Below, piece after piece: positions 2,514 to 48,145 of a stretch of DNA of 49,476 bases. Within the stretch, counting starts at the first letter, position 1, and the number at the start of each line of letters is the position of its first letter. This stretch comes from a virus: the IMG/VR virus record IMGVR_UViG_3300044695_003832, positions 1-49,476 of that record; one strand, 5' to 3'. Below the pieces are notes generated by a model. The model saw only the letters and a program-made list of their open reading frames with translations, made no database searches and was not told the origin of the DNA. The translations under genes and the position numbers were made by a program.

Positions 2514-5500
2514 ATGAGCGCACAATTCAATAAATTTGTACACGGAGTTATAGCTTTTAAAAAGTTAACGCATTCCGTAAGCCTTGTTAAATTTAAAAAA
2601 GAATCAAACTCTAAAGAAGTTAAAAAACCTTCTAAACCGGAACCTAAAGTTAAAGAACCAAAACCGTATGCACCTAACCCAAAAGCAGCACCTCCTATAA
2701 CAGCCAAAGACGAGAAGGGGGAAACAACTCGTGTAGAACCTTCTATAACAGGAACTACTGCAAGTAAAGCTGCGGAGAAACCAAGAACACAGGAAGAAAA
2801 AGAATCTCTTGGTATAAATGTTCCTTACACTCCCTCACACAAGCCTCAATTTATAAAAGGCAACCATCAAGATGTGATAGAAAGCATATGGGCAGATCAC
2901 AAGAAAGTGACTGAATCTGATCCTGTCTTTCAAGCACATAAAAAAGAATTATGGAAAACTTTTCAAAGGGCCGCCGCTAGCAACCCTAGCATGTCAGCAC
3001 TTCAAAATTTAAGAGAAGAACATATATCAGATGACCCTACCGAAAGAGTGGCCGTTATCATGCAGCACCTGCAAGATATGCACTCTACTGAAACAGACCC
3101 TACTAAAAAATCAGAAATAGAGCATCGCTTAAATCAAATCTATACAGGTGCAACACAATTCCTTCAGCAAAAAAGAGATCAGTCTTTAAAAAATCTTGTT
3201 TCTGGTAAAGGCGGCAGGCAAGGACAGTTTTACCCAAGTACGGATACTGGGTTGAGTTCTCCTATATCTAGAACCTCCGCCGTATCTCAAGGGCAAAAAC
3301 CAGCTAAAGCTAAAGAAGAAGACGAAAATGAGAACGAAGATTCCCGCACACAAGAAGTAAAAAGTTTACTTTTTTCTTTATCCGCTGCATTTAACCCAGA
3401 AATGACTGAGGCGTACCAAGCATTAAGAACAGCAATGGTAAAAGGAAAAAGGCCTAGATTAGCGGATCCTGTTGATGATATAAAACCGTCACCAAAGAAC
3501 CCCTTAGGTACCCCAAGTGAACAAAAAAAACACCAAGATAGGGTATCTAAATTTAATCAATCCGAAGCTGAAGTTGCACGATACAACGACAACATACATC
3601 ACATACTCACACTAGAGGCAGCTAGGTCTAAACTTGCAATGTCAGGCGCTGTTGGGTACGGCTCCAACATCCAAACAAATTTAGACTTTCTAAATTGGTA
3701 TTCTAAAGACGGTAGAAAGCACGATATAAATTTAGTTAATTTAGTTAACACGCATCCTGAATTTAAACTAATGCGAGGCATGTTAGGAAATATTTCAGAG
3801 CCTGACGGTAATGGTAAGAAAAGATTAGATCAAACAGAAGAGCAAGTTCACGCAGCTATGATATTTAAGCTGCTACTTGGGCCTACATCAAGCAACTTAA
3901 CACCTATAGCTAACTCAGAAACAGCGTTAAAAATCTTTCAAGACGGTTACTACAATTATGTAAAAAGACATCAAGCTGCAAACCCCGGTGCACCTGTTCC
4001 TAAGCCTAGCATGACAGATATTCTAAAATCTGCAAGTTTAGATAAAGGTAATTTAGGCGCACAAATGACCCTCAAAGATGTAGGGTTAGACAAAACACAT
4101 TTTATAGATAAAGAGGGAAACTCTCTTGCAGGATCCCCGGCTATAAAAGGAAACACCTACGATATATATGTAAGAGATGAGCATGGAAACATAGTTCCAA
4201 AAAATTCTAAGTGGATGCTTCGCCCAGGGTCAACAGAGGACTTTCTATCTTTTGTTCAATCAGATGAAGCCAAAAACTTTAACGACAGAGATATGATAGA
4301 TTACTATTTAAACAAGAAGCACAATATAAATGAAGCAGGCCAAAGAAAAGAAATAGCAGATAAACAGTTCTATGACGCTAAATATCAAGATCCTAATGGG
4401 CATATTACTTTTGAAGAAGCAACTGCACTACCTGGCGTATTCTCTTTAGGTAAAAAGTTCGGCCCTTATGTTCTTTCTATGATGTCAGAATATTTGCATC
4501 ACTTTGGCGATGGTGCAATGAACGCACCATTTGTTGCCGATAGGGTTATGACTGAATACTTTGGTAGATGGATGAATACTGTTTTTGGGGGTGCTCCTGA
4601 AAACGACCTTCAACGAGCAGCATTTGCACACTCCCTGATAGAAGCTACTAAAGAACTAGGCTACATGGAAGAACGAGACGATAGGCGCGGAGGAACTTTT
4701 AAAATACCTAGAGTAGATATGCTTCAAGGGCACTTATGGTCTAACCATCAGGGTACTGTTAGAGCATTTGGTGGAACTAACCCAAGTTCGTACTTGTCAC
4801 ATGGTGTTATATCGTTTGCAGATAAAGCTCAAAAAAGTGCAATTCAAAGAGCGAATTCTTTATTGAGTTCTGATAACATTCATGATAAGCACCATGCTGA
4901 AGAATTAAATGCTTGGGCTAACAGCCACAGACACATACAAGAAGGAGATATACATGAAACCGAAGAAGTTATCAAAACACGAGCAAGCCAAAGAGCAGAA
5001 GCAGAAAACTTTAGAAATGGCGCTTATAGAATCCCTAAAGAAACACTACTCAGCGTTTTATCACGCTTTAAGCTCCAGAAAAGATCAACTTCCACCAGAG
5101 ATAATGGGGATGGAACTAAAAAATCTAGAGAACGACCAGTAAAATTTGCACAGTTCAAACCAGCACCCGGTGGTATGACCGGAGCACCTGTTGCGACTAG
5201 AACCAACCAACCGTTCTCCAATGCTGTGGCTAAATCTCCAGGGGGAAAGAATCTAGCACAAGGTGCACTTGGCAACCAAATTAATGCTAAGGGTGGTGTA
5301 AATACTACAGCACAAAACGCAGTGGGTGATTGGCCTAATGGTAGCGAAGAATCAATCATACACACAGCACCACAAGGCACAGACGCATTTAAATTAAAAT
5401 ACTTAGGTGCTTGGCATGGTATCTCAGGACAGAAGAAATCTGTACTTGTATTCCACCCAAATCCAAAAGGTCCAGACAGCTTGTACCACATGGTTCACCC

Positions 5501-6587
5501 TTCGACAGACATGGGCGAAGTAAGAGAACAGCTAATTGCAGCAGGTATAAACTACAAGACTCTTCTACCTGGAAAGACAAACACAAGAGTAGTAGTATAC
5601 GATCCAAACAGAGGAATGAGGAACACCATAGACCAATTTGCTACATTAAATAACTTAAATGTAGAAGAAAACATTGGACAAGGTGAAATTGTAGGTCATA
5701 ATGGTGATTGGAACAGTGCAGGTGCTCTACCTAAGTCACGACAAGCTTACCAAAATATTATAGGTGAATATGAGCAGAATAGTAACCAAGCCGGGCCTAC
5801 CAACAATCCTAGTGGGGCATCCACCAATGGCACAAGCCCCAGCGCAGGGAAAGCCCAGCAACTCTCCCGCAAAACCACAGCCAAGGCCAAAATAAAGTTT
5901 GACCGTAGTCGAAGAATCTTAGAAGGATTTCTACGACAGCACAACACGCCCAACAAAGAGTTACCACCTGTTGGGGATTTACTGAGCCAAGACCTACAGA
6001 ACATCAAGCCAGAGCATCTATCAAAATACCAACAGTTGATTCCAGACGCAAAGTGGTCAGACATAGAAGGCGCTGTAACTTCACTGCAACAAGACCCTAG
6101 CCTCTATGACGATATGACGAGTGAATCTAACAGGCGAGAAATGTACTGCAAAGAACATGCGCGAACAGTACTACAAAGCAGTGGTTTAAAGAAGTTAATA
6201 GATAGCCTGCAAGTGCAAAAGATGATACCTGAACACGCACAGCACTTGATAGAAGACGCTAAAGATGGCGACTACTTTTCACTAGAAGCCATCAGTTCAG
6301 AACTACAACATGGAGTACCTTCACTGCGGGCCTTCGCAAAGGCCGCAGAGAAGGAGTACAACAAAGCAGGAAAGGTGTGGGATAAAATGCGAACAGGCAC
6401 ACAGCCACAAAAGTTTGCTAAGAAATCAGCACACGCTAAAGATCAATATCGTGCAGGTGCACACGGTGTAACCTTCCGTGGAAGAAACTACAACGGTGGA
6501 CAATTTGCACCAAAAGACGATGGTGTAAAAAGATTTGAAAAAGACTCCAACCTAACACACATGATTAGAAAACTAAGAGGAGCTTAA
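2514..6587 (+). CDS. 1357-residue virion-associated protein with mixed domains
   Basis: This is the longest gene in the window and lies between portal and capsid protease. The first 110 residues are Lys/Pro-rich linker. A folded central region around residues 640-740 contains GKKFGPYVLSMM and VADRVMTEYFGRW, which vaguely recalls helix-hairpin-helix N-glycosylase folds; this is a weak impression. Around residues 945-1060 there is an alpha/beta module beginning GAWHGISGQKKSVLVF and ending GQGEIVG that I have the impression of having seen in other phage virion proteins. The C terminus ends with GVTFRGRNYNGGQFAP, a short tail I associate with phage proteins. An internal virion or ejection protein would fit; no tape-measure coiled coil is seen. 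A second gene may be nested at 4954-5142. Confidence 0.7.
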   Translation: MSAQFNKFVHGVIAFKKLTHSVSLVKFKKESNSKEVKKPSKPEPKVKEPKPYAPNPKAAPPITAKDEKGETTRVEPSITGTTASKAAEKPRTQEEKESLGINVPYTPSHKPQFIKGNHQDVIESIWADHKKVTESDPVFQAHKKELWKTFQRAAASNPSMSALQNLREEHISDDPTERVAVIMQHLQDMHSTETDPTKKSEIEHRLNQIYTGATQFLQQKRDQSLKNLVSGKGGRQGQFYPSTDTGLSSPISRTSAVSQGQKPAKAKEEDENENEDSRTQEVKSLLFSLSAAFNPEMTEAYQALRTAMVKGKRPRLADPVDDIKPSPKNPLGTPSEQKKHQDRVSKFNQSEAEVARYNDNIHHILTLEAARSKLAMSGAVGYGSNIQTNLDFLNWYSKDGRKHDINLVNLVNTHPEFKLMRGMLGNISEPDGNGKKRLDQTEEQVHAAMIFKLLLGPTSSNLTPIANSETALKIFQDGYYNYVKRHQAANPGAPVPKPSMTDILKSASLDKGNLGAQMTLKDVGLDKTHFIDKEGNSLAGSPAIKGNTYDIYVRDEHGNIVPKNSKWMLRPGSTEDFLSFVQSDEAKNFNDRDMIDYYLNKKHNINEAGQRKEIADKQFYDAKYQDPNGHITFEEATALPGVFSLGKKFGPYVLSMMSEYLHHFGDGAMNAPFVADRVMTEYFGRWMNTVFGGAPENDLQRAAFAHSLIEATKELGYMEERDDRRGGTFKIPRVDMLQGHLWSNHQGTVRAFGGTNPSSYLSHGVISFADKAQKSAIQRANSLLSSDNIHDKHHAEELNAWANSHRHIQEGDIHETEEVIKTRASQRAEAENFRNGAYRIPKETLLSVLSRFKLQKRSTSTRDNGDGTKKSRERPVKFAQFKPAPGGMTGAPVATRTNQPFSNAVAKSPGGKNLAQGALGNQINAKGGVNTTAQNAVGDWPNGSEESIIHTAPQGTDAFKLKYLGAWHGISGQKKSVLVFHPNPKGPDSLYHMVHPSTDMGEVREQLIAAGINYKTLLPGKTNTRVVVYDPNRGMRNTIDQFATLNNLNVEENIGQGEIVGHNGDWNSAGALPKSRQAYQNIIGEYEQNSNQAGPTNNPSGASTNGTSPSAGKAQQLSRKTTAKAKIKFDRSRRILEGFLRQHNTPNKELPPVGDLLSQDLQNIKPEHLSKYQQLIPDAKWSDIEGAVTSLQQDPSLYDDMTSESNRREMYCKEHARTVLQSSGLKKLIDSLQVQKMIPEHAQHLIEDAKDGDYFSLEAISSELQHGVPSLRAFAKAAEKEYNKAGKVWDKMRTGTQPQKFAKKSAHAKDQYRAGAHGVTFRGRNYNGGQFAPKDDGVKRFEKDSNLTHMIRKLRGA
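4954..5142 (+). CDS. Possible nested gene in the +1 frame of the 1357-codon gene
   Basis: Inside the large gene an ATG at 4954 is preceded by GAAGGAGATATAC, a very strong Shine-Dalgarno with six-base spacing, far better than the site of most genes here. It opens a 62-residue reading frame in a different frame from the host gene. The product (starting MKPKKLSKHEQAKEQKQK, then LEMALIESLKKHY and a leucine/glutamate-rich end) has the look of a real, helical, charged protein rather than out-of-frame noise. Both frames use plausible codons across the overlap. It might instead be an incidental ribosome site; direct evidence is lacking. Confidence 0.42.
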   Translation: MKPKKLSKHEQAKEQKQKTLEMALIESLKKHYSAFYHALSSRKDQLPPEIMGMELKNLENDQ

Positions 6588-29534: not shown

Positions 29535-30292
29535 ACAAAGTGATAGGAATGCTAATTCTAGCTGTTGGGCTTATCTCAGCCAACGAGGTATATTTTGGTC
29601 GAATGAAGTTCGACCCTATTCCACTGCTTAAGCCAAAAGTAGCACCAACACCAGTACCAATTAAACCAGACGAACCTAAGCCTAAAAGACCCTGGGGCAC
29701 AGGCCTAGAAGGCTCAGTTGAGTCTATCACACTAGGTGGTTCTATTGCTCCTGATGGTAGCACGCCATTGCAAATAGATTTTCCATTAACACAACATATC
29801 CCCAATATTGGTTCTCATGTGGATGGTGCAGGTATGTGCGTAATGAGTTCTATAGAAATGGCTGGAAGATGGCAGAACTTAGAACAGGTTCGAGGACTAC
29901 GGAATTGGTGTGCCAATAAGCCAGGTGGAGGATACCCCTCTAAAGTTGATAAGCAGCTAAAAGAGTACTCTCAGGCACAAAAGATTAGCACACCCGAATA
30001 TGTGCAATACGAGGGCAAAGAACTAGACCTGCTTAAACTAGCATTAAAGACAGGTAGATTCCCTGCTGTGACCTACTCAGGGCGCGATAAAGTTCGATAT
30101 TCTGGCACAATCGCGCACATGGTGTGTTTGGCTCACCTAGACGATAAATGGGCTTGCATTTGGGATAATAACGGCACTGCGGGGGAACTAATATGGATGA
30201 CTCCAGAAGAATTTAAAACTCGATGGACTAATGATAGTAACGGTTGGGCCTTTGTATGGCTCGCACCACCCCCACCACCTGTACCGCACTAG
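29531..30292 (+). CDS. Exported papain-like (C39-like) cysteine peptidase, putative lysis or cell-envelope enzyme
   Basis: It encodes 253 residues. Residues 1-18 form a plausible signal sequence (MNKVIGMLILAVGLISA), followed by a Pro/Lys-rich linker to about residue 85. The remaining domain has the papain-like order: Cys103 in GAGMCVMSSI, His196 in TIAHMVCL and Asp212/Asn213 in IWDNNG, with PGGGYPSKVD between. A secreted cysteine peptidase could cut peptide cross-links of the host wall, or process envelope proteins. It is flanked by small membrane proteins, and no muramidase or amidase is found elsewhere, so it is the best endolysin candidate here. The C39 link is a fold-level impression, not a family search. 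Confidence 0.6.
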   Translation: MNKVIGMLILAVGLISANEVYFGRMKFDPIPLLKPKVAPTPVPIKPDEPKPKRPWGTGLEGSVESITLGGSIAPDGSTPLQIDFPLTQHIPNIGSHVDGAGMCVMSSIEMAGRWQNLEQVRGLRNWCANKPGGGYPSKVDKQLKEYSQAQKISTPEYVQYEGKELDLLKLALKTGRFPAVTYSGRDKVRYSGTIAHMVCLAHLDDKWACIWDNNGTAGELIWMTPEEFKTRWTNDSNGWAFVWLAPPPPPVPH

Positions 30293-31044: not shown

Positions 31045-31223
31045 ACATTTTAACTATTGCGATTGCACTAGCTGGATTTGCAGGTGGTTGGATTGCGCGA
31101 GAAACTTGTAGGCCTAAAGACCACCCGATCTTAGATGCTGTGCGAAAGCTAATTGCACAAAAAGCTAAAGAAGCAAAGCAAATTGACGTGGAAGAAGAAC
31201 TCAAAAAACTAAAAGGAGTATAA
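31041..31223 (+). CDS. Small membrane protein with coiled-coil end
   Basis: This 60-residue gene overlaps the preceding stop as ATGA. Residues 1-19 (NILTIAIALAGFAGGWIA) are one hydrophobic segment, followed by a basic/acidic helix with KLIAQKAKEAKQIDVEEELKKLKG. A single N-terminal anchor plus a charged helix resembles phage spanin, holin-accessory or Rz-like small proteins. Identity is not known; position in the lysis cassette supports a membrane role. Confidence 0.6.
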   Translation: MNILTIAIALAGFAGGWIARETCRPKDHPILDAVRKLIAQKAKEAKQIDVEEELKKLKGV

Positions 31224-31225
31224 CT

Positions 31226-31378
31226 ATGGCTGGATTTAAAACATACCTTGCTTGTGCTGGTCTACTTGGTTTAGCACTTTACCAACTCTCAGAAGGTCAC
31301 ATCGAACAAGCTGGACAAAGCTTCCTAGCAGCACTTGCTGCGTATGGACTTCGAAGTGCATTAAAGAATGTGGCCTAA
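31226..31378 (+). CDS. Small hydrophobic protein
   Basis: It encodes 50 residues from ATG 31226, preceded by AAGGAG eight bases upstream, and ends at TAA 31378. The sequence MAGFKTYLACAGLLGLALYQ is hydrophobic, then HIEQAGQSFLAALAAYGLR forms an amphipathic helix. Small proteins of this design are common beside phage lysis genes and might act at the membrane. No family name is assigned. Confidence 0.6.
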   Translation: MAGFKTYLACAGLLGLALYQLSEGHIEQAGQSFLAALAAYGLRSALKNVA

Positions 31379-32840: not shown

Positions 32841-33234
32841 TCTAGATCAACATTACTTAGATCTTCTAAATGAATTCGCACCTGTGTTTACGACGTTAGA
32901 AGAAATGAAAAGGTGCTACCTGGACAGGGCCTTCACTGGCACCTGTCCTACTTTTTTATGTTTCAGTGATTGTGGGAAACCATTAGGGAGTATTACAGTG
33001 CACTTAGTAGACAAAATGATTTATAGACTTCCTTATGCGTTCGTAGATGATTTTATTGTTGCGGAAGCTTGGAGAAGTAAGGGCATAGGAAGGCAACTAA
33101 TGCGACACGCAATTAACTACTGCCACAACAAAGGGTGTTTTAAAATAATATTAGATTGTGCCCCCTCTTTAGAAAAGTACTATTCGACATTCGGCTTTTA
33201 TGTTAATGGCACAACAATGCGTCTTGACCTGTGA
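32800..33234 (+). CDS. GNAT acetyltransferase similar to glucosamine-6-phosphate N-acetyltransferase
   Basis: It encodes 144 residues and uses TTG at 32800, since AAGGAGA lies six bases before it and no in-frame ATG precedes the domain. The C-terminal half matches the acetyl-CoA-binding GNAT fold: FVDDFIVAEAWRSKGIG (R/Q-x-x-G-x-G/A-like loop) and then CFKIILDCAPSLEKYYSTFG. The phrase GC-F/Y-KIILDC followed by a Tyr-rich helix is characteristic of GNA1, which acetylates glucosamine 6-phosphate, but small-molecule specificity is not provable. It sits between exonuclease and integrase, a place where cargo genes are common. Confidence 0.75.
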   Translation: MSNHSNIRRLDLHDLDQHYLDLLNEFAPVFTTLEEMKRCYLDRAFTGTCPTFLCFSDCGKPLGSITVHLVDKMIYRLPYAFVDDFIVAEAWRSKGIGRQLMRHAINYCHNKGCFKIILDCAPSLEKYYSTFGFYVNGTTMRLDL

Positions 33235-33244
33235 AGGAGTGATA

Positions 33245-34252
33245 TTGTATAGCCAAATTATGGCTACAATATTCTTCGACAAAAGTAGTAAACTTTGGGC
33301 GTTTCAAACCAGCACTAATGGTAAGAAAAAGCGCACATACCACAGCACAAAAGAGGAGGCAGAGGCTTTAATGCCTCGCGCCTCCTTGTCAGAAAAAGTA
33401 CATAGTTTTTCTGACATCATGAATAAATTTTTACAGTCTAGAAATGTAAGATACACATCTCTAGTACGATATAAGCAAGAAATAGCCTCTTTAAAAGAGT
33501 GCATAATTTCAGACAAATTAACTACAGACACTGTATCACTCACTGCGTCTGTGATTAACAAAAAATATCCAATAGCTAAAGCGTACAGGCTCATTAAACG
33601 ACTACTCACACTGTGCAAGGTAGCTGGTGTTGTACCACCTTACGACATTACGCCTAAGCACACCCATCAACCTGGACGCGCTCTAACGCAACAGGAGGTA
33701 GCGAAGTTAGTAAAGTTGTCAAGTCCTACGCACTATCATTCCTTATTACTTTTCCTGTTGGATACAGGTTGCAGGCTAGGTGAAGCACTTGGGCTAAATT
33801 GGGGTGATTTTCAGAACGGAAAGGTAGTAATTAACAAGGCCTATAATCAAAACAACAAGGCCTCTAAAACAACGCAGGTCAAGACTTCTAAGGGAAATCG
33901 AAAGATAACACTATCTGACAACCTGAATCAAATTTTGACACGTTTAAGGCCCAAGGATAGTAAGCTACCTATATTCACATCTCCAGAAGGTTTTAGAGTA
34001 TCCAGGTGGAACCTGCGTAGATGGTGGTCACCACTAATCAAAAAGTTTGGTACACCACTGCGAATACATGATCTCAGGCACACAAACGCCACGTATTTGC
34101 TTGGTGTATGCGATGTCAGGATGGTAGCTGCTAGGCTAGGTCACACTAGCCCTACCACCACCCTCAAGATCTATGATCACTATGTTTTAGATGATTCTGT
34201 AACAGCTTTCTGTACCCCGGCGGGTACAGTCGTAGCTAGAAAAAAGGCCTAA
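33245..34252 (+). CDS. int: Tyrosine recombinase, phage integrase
   Basis: The start is taken at TTG 33245, because GAAGGAG precedes it by about five bases; ATG 33260 is the alternative. The 335-residue product has an N-terminal arm-binding/core-binding region and a complete catalytic domain: Arg177 in TGCRLGEAL, Lys213 in VKTSKGNRK, His275-x-x-Arg278 in HDLRHTNATYL, His300 in RLGHTSPTTT and Tyr310 in KIYDHY. All six expected residues are present, so the enzyme is probably active. The gene is the last of the rightward block; the tRNA-like attP is eight bases downstream. It would integrate the circular genome into a host tRNA-Arg gene. Confidence 0.93.
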   Translation: MYSQIMATIFFDKSSKLWAFQTSTNGKKKRTYHSTKEEAEALMPRASLSEKVHSFSDIMNKFLQSRNVRYTSLVRYKQEIASLKECIISDKLTTDTVSLTASVINKKYPIAKAYRLIKRLLTLCKVAGVVPPYDITPKHTHQPGRALTQQEVAKLVKLSSPTHYHSLLLFLLDTGCRLGEALGLNWGDFQNGKVVINKAYNQNNKASKTTQVKTSKGNRKITLSDNLNQILTRLRPKDSKLPIFTSPEGFRVSRWNLRRWWSPLIKKFGTPLRIHDLRHTNATYLLGVCDVRMVAARLGHTSPTTTLKIYDHYVLDDSVTAFCTPAGTVVARKKA

Positions 34253-34260
34253 AAACCTAG

Positions 34261-34333
34261 TGCGCCCGGTAGGAATTGAACCTACGACCCTCGATTTAGG
34301 AAACCGATGCTCTATCCCCTGAGCTACGAGGGA
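34261..34333 (-). tRNA. tRNA-Arg(CCT)-like sequence, probable attP
   Basis: Read on the minus strand, these 73 bases form a normal tRNA layout from the D arm onward: D stem GCTC/GAGC, anticodon stem TCGGT/ATCGA with loop TTCCTAA (anticodon CCT, reads AGG), variable loop GGGTC, T stem GTAGG/CCTAC, acceptor strand CGGGCGC plus A. The 5' acceptor strand, TCCCTCG, pairs poorly with CGGGCGC (two mismatches), unlike a functional tRNA. No CCA is encoded. This is what an attP carrying the 3' part of a host tRNA gene looks like, and it abuts the integrase gene. A functional but odd tRNA remains possible. Confidence 0.75.
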
Positions 34334-41761: not shown

Positions 41762-42330
41762 TGAAATACGAAATAAAAGACAGTGGTGAGCGAGAAACAT
41801 TCCCAAGTGGTTCTGTGCGTGACTCACAGTGGGCGAAGGGTAGGTATGATTTGCTACCCTTCTCTGCCCTGGAGAGGATTGCCATTCACACAGAGTTAGG
41901 TGCTGCTAAATACGGTGATCGTAACTGGGAGAAGGGGCAACCAGTTGCACGCTATATTAACAGTGCTATACGCCACATAACTAAGTATTGCATGGGCTAT
42001 CGTGATGAGGATCACCTAGCTGCGTGCTGTTGGAATGTAATGGCAGCAATGTGGACAGCAGAGCAGGTTATAGAAGGTAAACTTCCGCCCCAACTAGGAG
42101 AAGGTTATGTCGATGGACAACACAGGCGAGAACAATGCACGACACAAGAACAAGATGTCACAGCACAAGATTATAAAAAAGGAAAGGAGACTAGAAGCAA
42201 TAGCCATGCGAAAACAGGGCTTAACATATGCGGAGATTGGGCGTGCAATGGGTGTGACAAGGCAGGCTGCCTATTCGTATGTAGAGAGGGAGTTCAAGAG
42301 TCTGATGAAGGAGGGCAGTGTAGTAGCTGA
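41761..42330 (+). CDS. dATP/dGTP diphosphohydrolase-like protein (DUF5664)
   Basis: The first 115 residues carry the family's motifs: ETFPSGSVRDSQWAKGRYDLLP, a GAAKYGDRNWEKGQP segment, SAIRHITKY and DEDHLAACCWNVMA (the MazG-like metal-binding E-D-H). The family includes MazZ, which removes dATP/dGTP in phages that use diaminopurine, but it also occurs in many ordinary phages and no PurZ is visible here. From about residue 116 the frame overlaps the next gene by 224 bases and reads like an out-of-frame tail with clustered cysteines, so the true end may be shorter in relatives. ATG shares the polymerase stop (TAATG). Confidence 0.72.
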   Translation: MKYEIKDSGERETFPSGSVRDSQWAKGRYDLLPFSALERIAIHTELGAAKYGDRNWEKGQPVARYINSAIRHITKYCMGYRDEDHLAACCWNVMAAMWTAEQVIEGKLPPQLGEGYVDGQHRREQCTTQEQDVTAQDYKKGKETRSNSHAKTGLNICGDWACNGCDKAGCLFVCREGVQESDEGGQCSS

Positions 42331-42646
42331 AAAGGCCCTATCGCTCACATTAGCTAGATTCGATGAATTGCTAAAGGTGTACTATAAAGAAGCTAAGGAT
42401 GGTAATAGGGAGTCATTGCACTCCGCGCTATCCATCATAGACAGGCAGATTAAGATACTTGGACTAGAAGCACCCAAAAAGTCTGAGTCTACAATCACCT
42501 ATCAGACACTGAGTGACCAAGAGCTTATTCAACAAGCTAGTATGTGGGGAATTTCTATACCTTTAGACCAGTTATCCTTGCAATCAGGGCAAATTACTGA
42601 TAATATACAAAAGTCCAGTAATTTTACCCAAACAGAGGAAGGATAG
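42107..42646 (+). CDS. Terminase small subunit-like HTH protein
   Basis: It encodes 179 residues from ATG 42107, which follows AGGAGAAGG in the end of the previous gene. Residues 26-60 contain a helix-turn-helix (RRLEAIAMRKQGLTYAEIG, then MGVTRQAAYSYV), followed by a long helical region and IDRQIKILGLEAPKK, a common small-terminase motif, and a polar tail. Such proteins bind the packaging site and hand DNA to TerL, encoded 1.7 kb downstream at 44350. Another HTH regulator is possible. It overlaps its upstream gene by 224 bases in another frame. Confidence 0.65.
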   Translation: MSMDNTGENNARHKNKMSQHKIIKKERRLEAIAMRKQGLTYAEIGRAMGVTRQAAYSYVEREFKSLMKEGSVVAEKALSLTLARFDELLKVYYKEAKDGNRESLHSALSIIDRQIKILGLEAPKKSESTITYQTLSDQELIQQASMWGISIPLDQLSLQSGQITDNIQKSSNFTQTEEG

Positions 42647-44349: not shown

Positions 44350-45924
44350 ATGTCAGCAGGCATGACAAGATTAGAATTAGAAACTAAATTACAACAGGCA
44401 TATACTGTTGCGGAACTAGCCTCCGCACGCAGTATAAAAGGCTATTTAGAAAGTGTAATCATAGATTCTAGACCAGAACCTAAAAGGTTTGCACATGTTG
44501 CACGCCCTTGGCAATGGAAGCGTACTGACTACATGTTGAGTCCTATTGAGGCTTTGTGTGGGCTTAGGCCTGAGTTTAAAGGGCCTAGAAACACTTGGGA
44601 AACACTTCCGCGCGGACACGACAAGACTACAGGCCTAGCGCGTATATGTAATTGGGTATTAGCATTCTCTAGGAAGCCTATCGAAATCGTAGCGGCAGCT
44701 GCAGATTTCGACCAAGCAGCATTACTAGTTGAGTCTATGTCAGCTGAGGCTAGGCTTAATCCATGGTTAGCTAAAAGAATTGTGTATGGTGCTAAAAGAA
44801 TAAAAGGCCCAGGTGGTGTATTAAAAATTCTTACAGCTGATAGTGCAACAAGCTTTGGACTACGCGCTGATCTAGTCGTTTGTGATGAAGTGACACATTG
44901 GAAGAAAAGAGATCTGTGGGATACATTGTGGTCAGGGCGACAGAAGCGCCCTGGGTCTGTGTTTGTGGTTATTACTAACGCAGGTACATTAGGAAGTTGG
45001 CAACATGATATTCTAGAACAAGTAAAGACTGATGATAGCTGGACAGTCTACGAAGCACCCGGACAATTAGACTCTTGGATGGATGCAGAAGCTATCCAGC
45101 GTGATCGAGCACTTCTACCTAATGGTGTAGCTAGGCGTGTACTAGATAATGTGTGGATAGATCCAGCAGAAGAATCAGGTTATTTAACTAGACAAGAAAT
45201 CAATCTAGGTACACAACTAGGCGCATCAAAAAACCTCGTTTACACCACCTCCGGTCTGCATGGCATGGAATACGTAGCCAGCATCGACTATGGAGCCAGA
45301 AGAGATAGGACTTCCATGTGTGTTATGCATCGTGATTTGGATGGTGTGTATGTGCTTGACCGTATGGATATTATCCAGGGCACACCAACTAACCCAGTGC
45401 CTATTGCTAGTGTTGATGCATGGATAGAAAACGTAGCAGCTAACTTTAATAATCCCACTATAATTATAGACCCTTGGCAGATGGAAGCTACAGTTCAAAA
45501 GTATGAACACAGACTGCGTTGTACTAGGTTTGATGGGCGTAGTGGTAAGAGTAATTATGAGATGGCTGAACTACTTAGAAGCCTATTAGTTAACAACCAA
45601 TTAGCGTGGTATTCTGACCCTGCACCACTACAAGTTGGTAAGAGAAAAGAGACGCTTGTTGATGAGATGGCTAGCCTGATTATCAAGACTACAGGTGCGT
45701 CTTACAGGTTCGACCATAGCAATGGCCTGCACGATGACCGCACAGTATCGATGGGCATGGCGCTAGTCACACTAGCAGCGCAACAACAGGTAGGTCCGTG
45801 GGTAGCACCGGGTAGCCTGCAAAAACCAGCACCAACAGACTATAGCCTGCGCACACCCAAGTTCAATGGTATGTTTGGGTTAGGTCTAAAACCCCAGGGC
45901 ACAAGTAGAAATATATTTGGTTAG
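44350..45924 (+). CDS. terL: Terminase large subunit
   Basis: It encodes 524 residues with AAGGAAACACACA before the ATG. The ATPase has a Walker A-like LPRGHDKTTG (residues 86-95, Lys92), a Walker B ADLVVCDEVTHW with Asp179-Glu180 and an ITNAG motif III near 209. The nuclease domain has SIDYGARRDRT (Asp313), IIIDPWQM (Asp374) and GLHDDRTVSMG (Asp462). All these are expected for a DNA-packaging motor. The gene is followed by a repeat-rich noncoding region, and three copies of the GCCTGCA repeat (one of them a variant) already lie within its 3' end. Confidence 0.9.
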   Translation: MSAGMTRLELETKLQQAYTVAELASARSIKGYLESVIIDSRPEPKRFAHVARPWQWKRTDYMLSPIEALCGLRPEFKGPRNTWETLPRGHDKTTGLARICNWVLAFSRKPIEIVAAAADFDQAALLVESMSAEARLNPWLAKRIVYGAKRIKGPGGVLKILTADSATSFGLRADLVVCDEVTHWKKRDLWDTLWSGRQKRPGSVFVVITNAGTLGSWQHDILEQVKTDDSWTVYEAPGQLDSWMDAEAIQRDRALLPNGVARRVLDNVWIDPAEESGYLTRQEINLGTQLGASKNLVYTTSGLHGMEYVASIDYGARRDRTSMCVMHRDLDGVYVLDRMDIIQGTPTNPVPIASVDAWIENVAANFNNPTIIIDPWQMEATVQKYEHRLRCTRFDGRSGKSNYEMAELLRSLLVNNQLAWYSDPAPLQVGKRKETLVDEMASLIIKTTGASYRFDHSNGLHDDRTVSMGMALVTLAAQQQVGPWVAPGSLQKPAPTDYSLRTPKFNGMFGLGLKPQGTSRNIFG

Positions 45925-46360
45925 CCTGCATGTGATTAGGAATAAGAGAGTGGGATAGTGCGTAATTGGTTAGCCTGCACGAAACCCTATGATTATAGGT
46001 GTTTGGGGGTGGGTTGCCTGCAACTCTTACACTGAATATAGAGAGAGAGAAAAGGCGTGTTGCCTGCATGTCTTACACTAATGTAGGCATCGCTGCGCGA
46101 TAGCCTGCAATGTGTATCATTGTCTAATGGTGTTCGCTTCGCTCACACATTTCTTGTAGTGCACTTCGTGCACCACATCTGTAGTTGGTGACCCACTCGC
46201 TGTGCTCGTGGAACAAGCGGGCATAATCCGCCACCAGAGATATTAATACTTAGGATGTGCGTAATAGCTTACACCTATCACCAAAGCCTATGTTTATAGG
46301 GGTTTCATGCACACAGCGCATTAGAGACATGGAGTGTGCGTAAATATTTTATTGCCTGCA
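45725..46360 (+). repeat. GCCTGCA direct-repeat array
   Basis: Eight copies of GCCTGCA and one GCCTGCG lie on the plus strand at 45725, 45815, 45845 (variant), 45924, 45973, 46016, 46062, 46103 and 46354; most are preceded by TA or TT. Copies from 45924 to 46103 are spaced 41-49 bases. The array starts in the terL 3' end and runs into noncoding DNA. It looks like an iteron or packaging-protein site array. Confidence 0.8.
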
Positions 46361-46526
46361 TCGATGTGCACCAAACCCTATAAATATAGGTGTTTCGTGC
46401 ATGCCTCTTTCTTCTACTGCACAATAGCGGCGAATAACGGATATTTCTAGTCTCAATATATTCATACCTAGTGTGTGCGTAATTACAACTTCGCATGTTC
46501 ACCAAAGCCTATAAAAATAGGGGTTT
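45958..46526 (+). repeat. Four composite repeats: GTGCGTAA plus hairpin AAASCCTAT/ATAGGKGTTT
   Basis: GTGCGTAA occurs at 45958, 46257, 46336 and 46475; 24-37 bases on from each there is a hairpin made of AAASCCTAT, four loop bases, ATAGGKGTTT (45982-46004, 46283-46305, 46373-46395, 46504-46526). The middle base varies together on both arms: CCC with GGTG, GCC with GGGG. Three of the four are preceded by CACC, and three followed by a TTTC-A/G-T. Repeated units plus coupled changes point to selection on structure. Confidence 0.8.
46130..46232. repeat. Cluster of short GC-rich hairpins
   Basis: Consecutive small inverted repeats occur here: GTGTTCGCTTCGCTCACAC; GTGCAC-TTC-GTGCAC (46159-46173); CCAC...GTGG around CTCGCTGTGCTC; and GCGG-GCATAAT-CCGC. 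A similar one, ATCGC-TGC-GCGAT, is at 46089-46101. They could form a structured RNA or protein-binding sites. They are not coding in any supported frame. Confidence 0.55.
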
Positions 46527-46633
46527 CATAACACCTATTAGAGACACGCTTAGTGCACTATTACCTATAGTGGACATTGCAGGTAGCTTATATGCGAGTA
46601 CGGCGTTTTGCGTTTAAAAAGTTTTTTGTGCTA

Positions 46634-46657
46634 GGGGGGGGGGACCCGAGGGGGGGG
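46634..46657 (+). other. Paired G runs (10 G and 8 G), quadruplex-prone
   Basis: Ten G (46634-46643) and eight G (46650-46657) are separated by ACCCGA. This is the only such run in the window and could fold into a G-quadruplex, or mark a phage end or packaging signal. Homopolymer length may also be inexact in the assembly. Confidence 0.7.
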
Positions 46658-46740
46658 TACTTCAAATTTACAAAATAAAAAAATGACACCCTCTTCACAA
46701 AACCTTCACACGCATATATGTGTTAGCCTACACTATGCGA

Positions 46741-46899
46741 TTAGTTTTGTCCAGTATGTTTCTCAGACTGAGATACAGAAGGGGGAAGCTCTAGTATAAA
46801 TTTATACAGTACAAGTGCGTCTTGTAGTTGTATGAATGGTTTGGAGGCCTTGAACGCAATTTCAATGCGTTCTAAGGCCTCTCTTAGGCGTTCGTCCAT
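46741..46899 (-). CDS. Small leftward protein downstream of the methyltransferase
   Basis: It encodes 52 residues, ATG at 46899 immediately after the methyltransferase stop (46901), with AAGGA seven bases upstream within the end of that gene. The product MDERLREALERIEIAFKAS, then LQDALVLYKFILELPPS is amphipathic-helical. The linked position suggests a cofactor or accessory to the methyltransferase, but there is no other evidence. Confidence 0.5.
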   Translation of the reverse strand: MDERLREALERIEIAFKASKPFIQLQDALVLYKFILELPPSVSQSEKHTGQN

Positions 46900-46900
46900 A

Positions 46901-48145
46901 TTAGTCCTTTAGTTTATTTATTCTTTCGCCAATCCAGCGCATCACAGGAACAGCCATAGAATTACCTAGGGCTTTGTACCTGGGTGCATCTGGGCATAGT
47001 TCAGGTGGTTTGTTCTTCCACGCAATAGATGTGTAGTCATCAGGAAATCCTTGTAACCTTTCACATTCACGAGGTGTAAGTCTTCTAACAGCCGTGTTTT
47101 TTATAAGCACATTTTCGCCGCCATTATTTCTACCTTGTGCAAATGCAATATTAGAAACACAAGGATCTTGTGTGCCATGCACAATGTGTGCCACCGCAGT
47201 TCGGTTATCTCCCATAACACCTCTTAGTGTGCCTGTTAACTCCGGTATAAATCGGCTAGGATCACCTTCTCTAACTGCGATGCCGGGTTCAAAAGATATA
47301 GCAGCTAAAGGCGTGTTACCACAAACAAAAGCACAGTTACGAGTAGTTAAATGCGCAGTAGAACTTTCTTGAGGATTATGGTGATTAGCCATGTCGTAGG
47401 TTGTAATTAGCTTACCTTCATGTGCGTACTGATCACTAACCCCCTTAGGCCCATCAGCAGCAGCTAGTGCACCTGTTATTGGTTCACAGTATTCAATCTT
47501 ATAAGCCCCATCACTTATTTGGATGTGGTCAATACCACGCTCTCCAAAGCCACCTGTAATAGTTCCGGTAACTTCTTTCCTCTTGTCTCTGCACGGCGGA
47601 GTATCCCTGCGCACGCTTTCGGACTCAAATAGTACCTTTTGTGCACTTGTTCTGTCTCCAAGACATCCGACAACAAACACACGCTTGCGTCTTTGGGCCA
47701 ATCCGAACCACTGAGCGTCCAACACACGGTAGGCCCACCCATACCCCATGTTCCCCAACGCTGTGATGAAGGTAGAAAAATCTCTTCCTCTGTTAGATGA
47801 CAACACACCGGGGACATTTTCCCAGATAGTCCACTTAGGCCGTCTACTTTCAAGGATTCTAAGGTAGGTAAGCATGATGTTACCTCTAGGGTCTTCGAGT
47901 CCTTTTCTAAGTCCTGCGATGCTGAAAGACTGACAAGGTGTTCCTCCGACCAAAAGGTTGATTGGTGGTAGTTTCCATTTCTTGTGGTCATTAATATCTC
48001 CGTAGTTTTTAACTTTAGGATAGTGGTGTTTTAAAACCGCACATGGAAAAGGTTCTATTTCGGAAAAACCTGCGGGTTGCCACCCTAGGTTTTCCCAAGC
48101 ACAAGTTGCCGCTTCAATCCCAGAACAAACAGATAAATACTGCAT
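46901..48145 (-). CDS. DNA cytosine-5 methyltransferase
   Basis: It encodes 414 residues. The motifs of a C5 DNA methyltransferase appear in order: I FSEIEP region after YLSVCSGIEAA; IV GGTPCQSFS with the catalytic Cys71; VI ENVPG (109-113); VIII QRRKRVFVVG (151-160); IX RRLTPRECERLQGFP and X YKALGNSMAVPV. Residues about 165-345 form a long variable segment (target-recognition region), larger than in many phage enzymes. It probably protects the phage DNA from host restriction or marks it. Transcribed leftward, divergent from the portal operon. Confidence 0.92.
   Translation of the reverse strand: MQYLSVCSGIEAATCAWENLGWQPAGFSEIEPFPCAVLKHHYPKVKNYGDINDHKKWKLPPINLLVGGTPCQSFSIAGLRKGLEDPRGNIMLTYLRILESRRPKWTIWENVPGVLSSNRGRDFSTFITALGNMGYGWAYRVLDAQWFGLAQRRKRVFVVGCLGDRTSAQKVLFESESVRRDTPPCRDKRKEVTGTITGGFGERGIDHIQISDGAYKIEYCEPITGALAAADGPKGVSDQYAHEGKLITTYDMANHHNPQESSTAHLTTRNCAFVCGNTPLAAISFEPGIAVREGDPSRFIPELTGTLRGVMGDNRTAVAHIVHGTQDPCVSNIAFAQGRNNGGENVLIKNTAVRRLTPRECERLQGFPDDYTSIAWKNKPPELCPDAPRYKALGNSMAVPVMRWIGERINKLKD

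Follow-up and report, generated by a model that had tools for sequence, protein, structure and literature searches.

A repeat- and hairpin-rich noncoding block after terL as a candidate pac-type packaging start in an uncultured phage

The pac site of phage P1 features several short same-sense words around the cut, and a DNA methyltransferase is involved. Phage T7 carries a terminal repeat with arrays of short repeats, SRL and SRR. In SPP1 and SF6, the pac repeats differ though the terminases are interchangeable, and the small terminase subunit (TerS) binds with little sequence preference (PMC4737164). The locus compared here with these systems lies at the end of the gene for the large terminase subunit (terL) of an uncultured phage. 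Positions 45725-46671 may represent a composite cis-acting terminase site of the pac type, i.e. a packaging-initiation site with repeats turning over as in SPP1/SF6. This is the best explanation at hand and a plausible one, which we hold tentatively.

The noncoding block after terL and its repeated elements

The window, i.e. the whole stretch of 49,476 nt that was analysed (virus record G000), is a complete, closed phage-type contig with identical ends of 127 nt. The genes recognised include a Mu-like portal gene, which wraps around the contig ends, and those for scaffold and adaptor proteins, an integrase, RecE, RecT, a primase-helicase and a family-A DNA polymerase. At 33200-34333, an integrase gene precedes an intact tRNA-Arg (CCT) located on the opposite strand. 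Such an arrangement is likely to mark an attachment site, and thus the phage is probably temperate. Two proteins of the portal-to-scaffold interval, of 540 aa (878-2500) and 1357 aa (2514-6587), have no PHROG or Pfam match. No TerL relative was detectable in named phages. A TerL search of bacterial genomes gave a single match (31%, in a planctomycete MAG) and was rejected as a guide to the host.

Downstream of terL (44350..45924, + strand) lies a gap (45925-46740) which is the longest noncoding stretch of the phage and holds about 0.7 kb of conserved noncoding DNA. Its right border is a conserved 52-aa ORF convergent with terL (46741..46899, - strand). Beyond it, outside the element, a C5-cytosine DNA methyltransferase gene is found as a neighbour (46901..48145, - strand), with no match in the short record G020. 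The convergent arrangement is kept in the relatives examined; since the block lies between convergent genes, it is not upstream of a gene. Promoters and terminators in the window did not exceed chance, and no intrinsic terminator was seen. An Rfam scan returned one tRNA only in the window and no match in L001, L008 and L011, i.e. no known structured-RNA family.

The array of eight GCCTGCA words and one variant, on which the original prediction was built, is real. The 7-nt word starts at 45725, 45815, 45924, 45973, 46016, 46062, 46103 and 46354, and the variant GCCTGCG at 45845, all on the + strand. By exact counts, 45725-46360 holds eight copies on the + strand and none on the - strand against a Poisson expectation of 0.043 (3e-16), an enrichment of about 190-fold, with five copies elsewhere in the genome on both strands together. 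The variant does lie inside terL as proposed, along with two perfect copies rather than one, and the third overlaps the last base of the terL stop codon. Regular spacing holds for 45924-46103 only (49, 43, 46 and 41 bp) and not elsewhere in the array. A spacing of 41-50 bp recurs in relatives, among which the copy number differs by whole units of about 48-50 bp.

Four GTGCGTAA/palindrome units are likewise concentrated here, as had been predicted. The GTGCGTAA words start at 45958, 46257, 46336 and 46475 on the + strand (span 45958..46482), with one other genome copy at 29836. The palindrome AAASCCTATn4ATAGGKGTTT occurs on the + strand as AAACCCTAT-GATT-ATAGGTGTTT (45982..46004), AAAGCCTAT-GTTT-ATAGGGGTTT (46283..46305), AAACCCTAT-AAAT-ATAGGTGTTT (46373..46395) and AAAGCCTAT-AAAA-ATAGGGGTTT (46504..46526), and nowhere else in the window. 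Its arms were thought to change together, which is true of the window's four copies (CCC with GGTG, GCC with GGGG) and fails in relatives, which have the pairings GC..GTG, CG..GGG and CG..GTG as well. Covariation of the arms was rejected: 7 of 13 pairs never vary, the variable pairs are uncompensated, and 176 of 500 shuffles reach the observed score. Invariant stems lacking compensation would suit a palindrome bound by a protein no less than a hairpin. Similar hairpins (L073:215-300, L113:1450-1560, L115:1450-1560) are found ahead of the integrase gene in G004/G002/G017, where a TGATCACGAAA..TTTCGTGATCA inverted repeat precedes them, and near a tRNA-like stretch in G023; the window has no such hairpins at those places. 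A REP/RAYT reading, raised by a GTAG ahead of some hairpins, was set aside, no Y1 transposase being seen.

A second hairpin family, missed by the original prediction, carries the motif TCGCTnnGCTC. Two members lie in the window's block (both + strand), with arms GTGT/ACAC at 46127..46151 and CCAC/GTGG at 46190..46214, the latter compensatorily replaced in L001 and L008, and others occupy orthologous places in relatives. Their arms are different yet complementary words, GTTCCGG/CCGGAAC and TGCAGG/CCTGCA being further examples. Six of nine pairs change on both sides, and 0-4 of 500 shuffles reach the observed values (four distinct sequences only); slid structures score far lower. These compensatory changes would be expected of RNA and of DNA folding alike. 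On the complementary strand the hairpins would form stem-GA-GC-GNA-GC-GA-stem', with tandem G.A and a GNA triloop in most copies, which suggests that the - strand may be the folding one. Two further + strand hairpins flank this family's first member: TGTAGGC-ATCGCTGCGCGATA-GCCTGCA (46082..46109), whose 3' arm is one of the GCCTGCA copies and whose block is 94% conserved in L008, and GTGCAC-TTC-GTGCAC (46159..46173). In each of the five lineages tested, local folding energy is lower than in dinucleotide shuffles, for the most part on either strand and whether RNA or DNA parameters are used; the exception is the L055 - strand as RNA. A general density of perfect stems was rejected as an account of the DNA, as only L011 exceeds its shuffles (10 against at most 6) and the window does not.

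Relatives and the landmark they share

Relatives were gathered by TerL searches of IMG/VR (loci with TerL 46-98% identical), and DNA-pattern scans added contigs. Four kinds of terL-adjacent region are distinguishable among them. L001-L005 (TerL 98%) resemble the window and have one extra 50-bp GCCTGCA unit. L006-L009, L013 and L018 (TerL 92-94%) have three AAASSCTAT palindromes and 6-7 GCCTGCA. L010-L012 (TerL 83%) carry nine GCCTGC copies in an array (0.23 expected) together with GTGCAC-type triloop hairpins, and lack the AAASCCTAT palindrome. In L046/L054/L055/L060 (TerL 77% where complete), the region is only about 250 bp long, with one palindrome and neither GCCTGCA nor GTGCGTAA. Hence the expectation that relatives with a similar terL would conserve the motifs was not borne out, one or the other family being missing at TerL identities of 77-83%.

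The proposal that gene-free DNA beside terL is under constraint fared better. When the window is compared with L008, identity is 76% over the gap's final 425 bp, with several blocks at 88-94%, against 60% at four-fold degenerate terL sites. Between the window and L011, where four-fold sites have fallen to 38%, the alignable gap sequence is a 42-bp landmark only, at 79%.

This landmark occupies 46596..46671 on the + strand, just past the range of the original prediction (45725-46526), and consists of GAGTACGG, a G10 run (46634-46643), ACCCGA, a G8 run (46650-46657) and TACTTCAAATTTAC. All relatives with a contig long enough have GAGTACGG followed by two runs of G6-G10 with ACC between. The length of the runs varies among lineages and is never below six, and the G-rich strand is the non-template strand for terL transcription. 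Across the contigs compared, it is the landmark, not the motifs first noticed, that is kept by all lineages.

Possible roles of the block

The protein encoded at 42107..42646 (+ strand) had been called TerS-like, and homology bears this out: it is 30-32% identical to the gene 1 products of Gordonia and Arthrobacter phages, labelled terminase small subunit or HTH protein. Another match is a DNA-binding protein of cluster B mycobacteriophages, which is encoded far from terL. Among the small proteins encoded upstream of terL, the TerS homologue alone persists beside the 46% TerL (L064), and its recognition helix is nearly constant across relatives. The position of the homologues at base 1 of phage records is in keeping with the linearisation of circularly permuted records near the terminase start (PMC5513430). 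The same source lists Sonny as circularly permuted (PMC5513430), and the cluster B1 phages are listed likewise (PMC9584339, PMC10353444). By its relatives, TerS would favour a circularly permuted genome with headful (pac) packaging over cos. The window and G013 close on themselves, and other contig ends are scattered. An AlphaFold model of the protein has a mean pLDDT of 67, and Foldseek gave no match with E <= 0.001. The PHROG family that it matches, phrog_645 ('Rnase E'), is labelled a terminase small subunit in several Gordonia records, and the RNase E label looks misannotated. Two candidate signals were rejected: GCCTGCA as the TerS operator, because L055 has an almost identical recognition helix and no GCCTGC array, and a pair of G-runs that precedes terS in Gordonia Kroosvirus, which is not kept in Bibwit, RiverRaider and Love.

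A packaging or replication site had been proposed. As a cis-element of either kind the block is reasonable, since it is gene-free, under selection, located in the terL-to-portal interval of every relative examined and accompanied by a TerS homologue; the motif families themselves are not conserved. A pac-type start is preferred because a constant TerS helix and landmark with exchanged repeats fit SPP1/SF6, and in all lineages examined the block directly follows terL, near the terminase genes as in pac systems. From the conserved DNA we infer a terminase target, as well as the reading of this DNA by the terminase, the position of the cut and the direction. A ring of TerS, the proposed reader, would assemble where repeats and hairpins are dense, past the end of terL. 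The initial cut by TerL would then fall at the GAGTACGG/twin-G-run landmark or close to it, this landmark being the likeliest core of the pac site. Headful packaging would run rightwards into the portal and head genes. Several points tell against this: known pac sites are next to terS, and here terS is separated from terL by 1.7 kb and from the gap by 3.3 kb; neither the AAASCCTAT palindromes nor GCCTGCA occur in every relative with a near-identical TerS helix; and the contig breaks at the landmark, described below, would be equally well explained by sequencing drop-out.

An R-loop-primed replication origin seems unlikely. Transcription of terL would cross the G-runs, an RNA/DNA hybrid G-quadruplex would form, and termination would prime DNA synthesis, the hairpins and repeats serving as unwinding or primosome sites. 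The twin runs of at least six G on the non-template strand in all lineages agree with this, as do the direct repeats, the covarying TCGCTnnGCTC hairpins and the precedent of mitochondrial CSB II (PMC5027508). The polymerase and primase-helicase genes are at least 4 kb away, however, and as much as 5-6 kb or more. For an iteron origin, no initiator gene was found among the proteins scanned, and regular spacing covers only part of the array. Cumulative GC skew has a peak at the block instead of a dip; gene orientation explains this peak.

Doubtful, too, is a transcription boundary or 3'-UTR element, in which hairpins and G-runs would end or stabilise the terL message and separate convergent transcripts. 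The convergent genes and the low folding energy suit such a role, and L008 has GCCG-AGTA-CGGC followed by T11. Nevertheless, the window has no intrinsic terminator, L055 and L011 lack the T-run, the block with its 0.7 kb would be a long terminator, and the DNA folds equally strongly on both strands.

The G-runs also invite a wider reading. A scan for G7-ACCC-x-G7-WCCC found matches in unrelated viral contigs. In phiKZ (31139-31289, in the conserved gap between PHIKZ037 and PHIKZ038; L188:7140-7290, also L157, L147 and L189), a stretch to which 56 Pseudomonas jumbo-phage records have matches, a hairpin G7-ACCC-TTT-G7-TCCC caps a long AT-rich stem in which two pairs have changed on both sides; its carrier record L171 gave no Rfam match. 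Other viral groups with the pattern are L140, L156 and L166; L137, L161, L173 and L176; and L141, L145 and L178. L166 has it close to the gene for a phage-type RNA polymerase. Because chance could give tens of matches, common descent or function is not claimed. It is quite unlikely that the landmark belongs to a recurrent structured element (G7-ACCC-short hairpin-G7-WCCC) of this clade, the phiKZ-like gap and phages with phage-type RNA polymerase, i.e. a shared DNA/RNA switch in genome processing acting, e.g., by two-molecule G-quadruplex pairing.

Lineage-specific selfish or slippage-prone repeats, with the words as roleless expansions and the landmark alone mattering, would account for copy numbers shifting by whole 48-50 bp units and for motif families swapped among lineages. 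This is distinctly improbable, as blocks are conserved above neutral in lineages sharing little else, hairpin arms covary, and no mobile-element gene was found among the proteins scanned.

Contigs L098, L097, L100, L060 and L006 each have an end no more than about 20 nt from the first G-run (at -18, -11, in the run, -9 and about -5; nominal binomial 7e-10), and most contigs run through. Since the break points differ and L164, an unrelated virus with a G7 pair, breaks alike at -12, these ends are provisionally counted as sequencing drop-out. A cos site, with the landmark as cohesive-end cut and genome ends fixed there, would draw on these five ends and is very improbable given their scatter over tens of bases, the like break in L164, the contigs running through and the circularly permuted TerS relatives; cos was rejected as a reading of the contig ends.

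Comparison with described systems

If the block is a packaging start, it would represent a pac architecture after terL in which an invariant core is combined with freely exchanging repeats, and its landmark would allow the packaging sites of uncultured phages to be located from sequence when virion reads are lacking. The view, drawn from SPP1/SF6, that DNA shape matters more to the terminase than the repeat words would also be in line with it. An R-loop origin, by contrast, would make the block a phage counterpart of the mitochondrial CSB II switch, which likewise has a G-tract pair of variable length on the non-template strand (PMC5027508).

The 25-nt core of the phiKZ-like hairpin is nearly identical to that of L010-L012 (three differences in 25 bases for L010), whereas its long covarying outer stem and codirectional flanking genes set it apart. 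Like the block, T7 has arrays of 7-nt repeats on that side of the genome end where terL lies, and it shares the words GTACGG and GGGGGTACCTAAA, but its TerL is of another family and the likeness may be chance. At the T7 left end (L099:1-48), GTACGG and GGGGGTACCTAAA follow each other in the order that they have in the landmark of the clade (in the window, the sequence is TACTTCAAA); this too is possibly chance. Lambda-type cos (cosQ-cosN-cosB) is similar in its conserved cut-like core with flanking repeated boxes near terminase genes and differs in its fixed ends, circular permutation being more likely here. P1 pac has short same-sense words and a methyltransferase in common with the block, although the words here are unrelated to those of P1 and the methyltransferase gene is a neighbour outside the element. 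The pac site of SPP1 spans the terS promoters and start, whereas the block here follows terL and ends in a twin G-run. Yet SPP1/SF6 pac resembles it as a direct-repeat composite, with an HTH small terminase as reader (here proposed) and with repeats that differ between related phages (PMC4737164).
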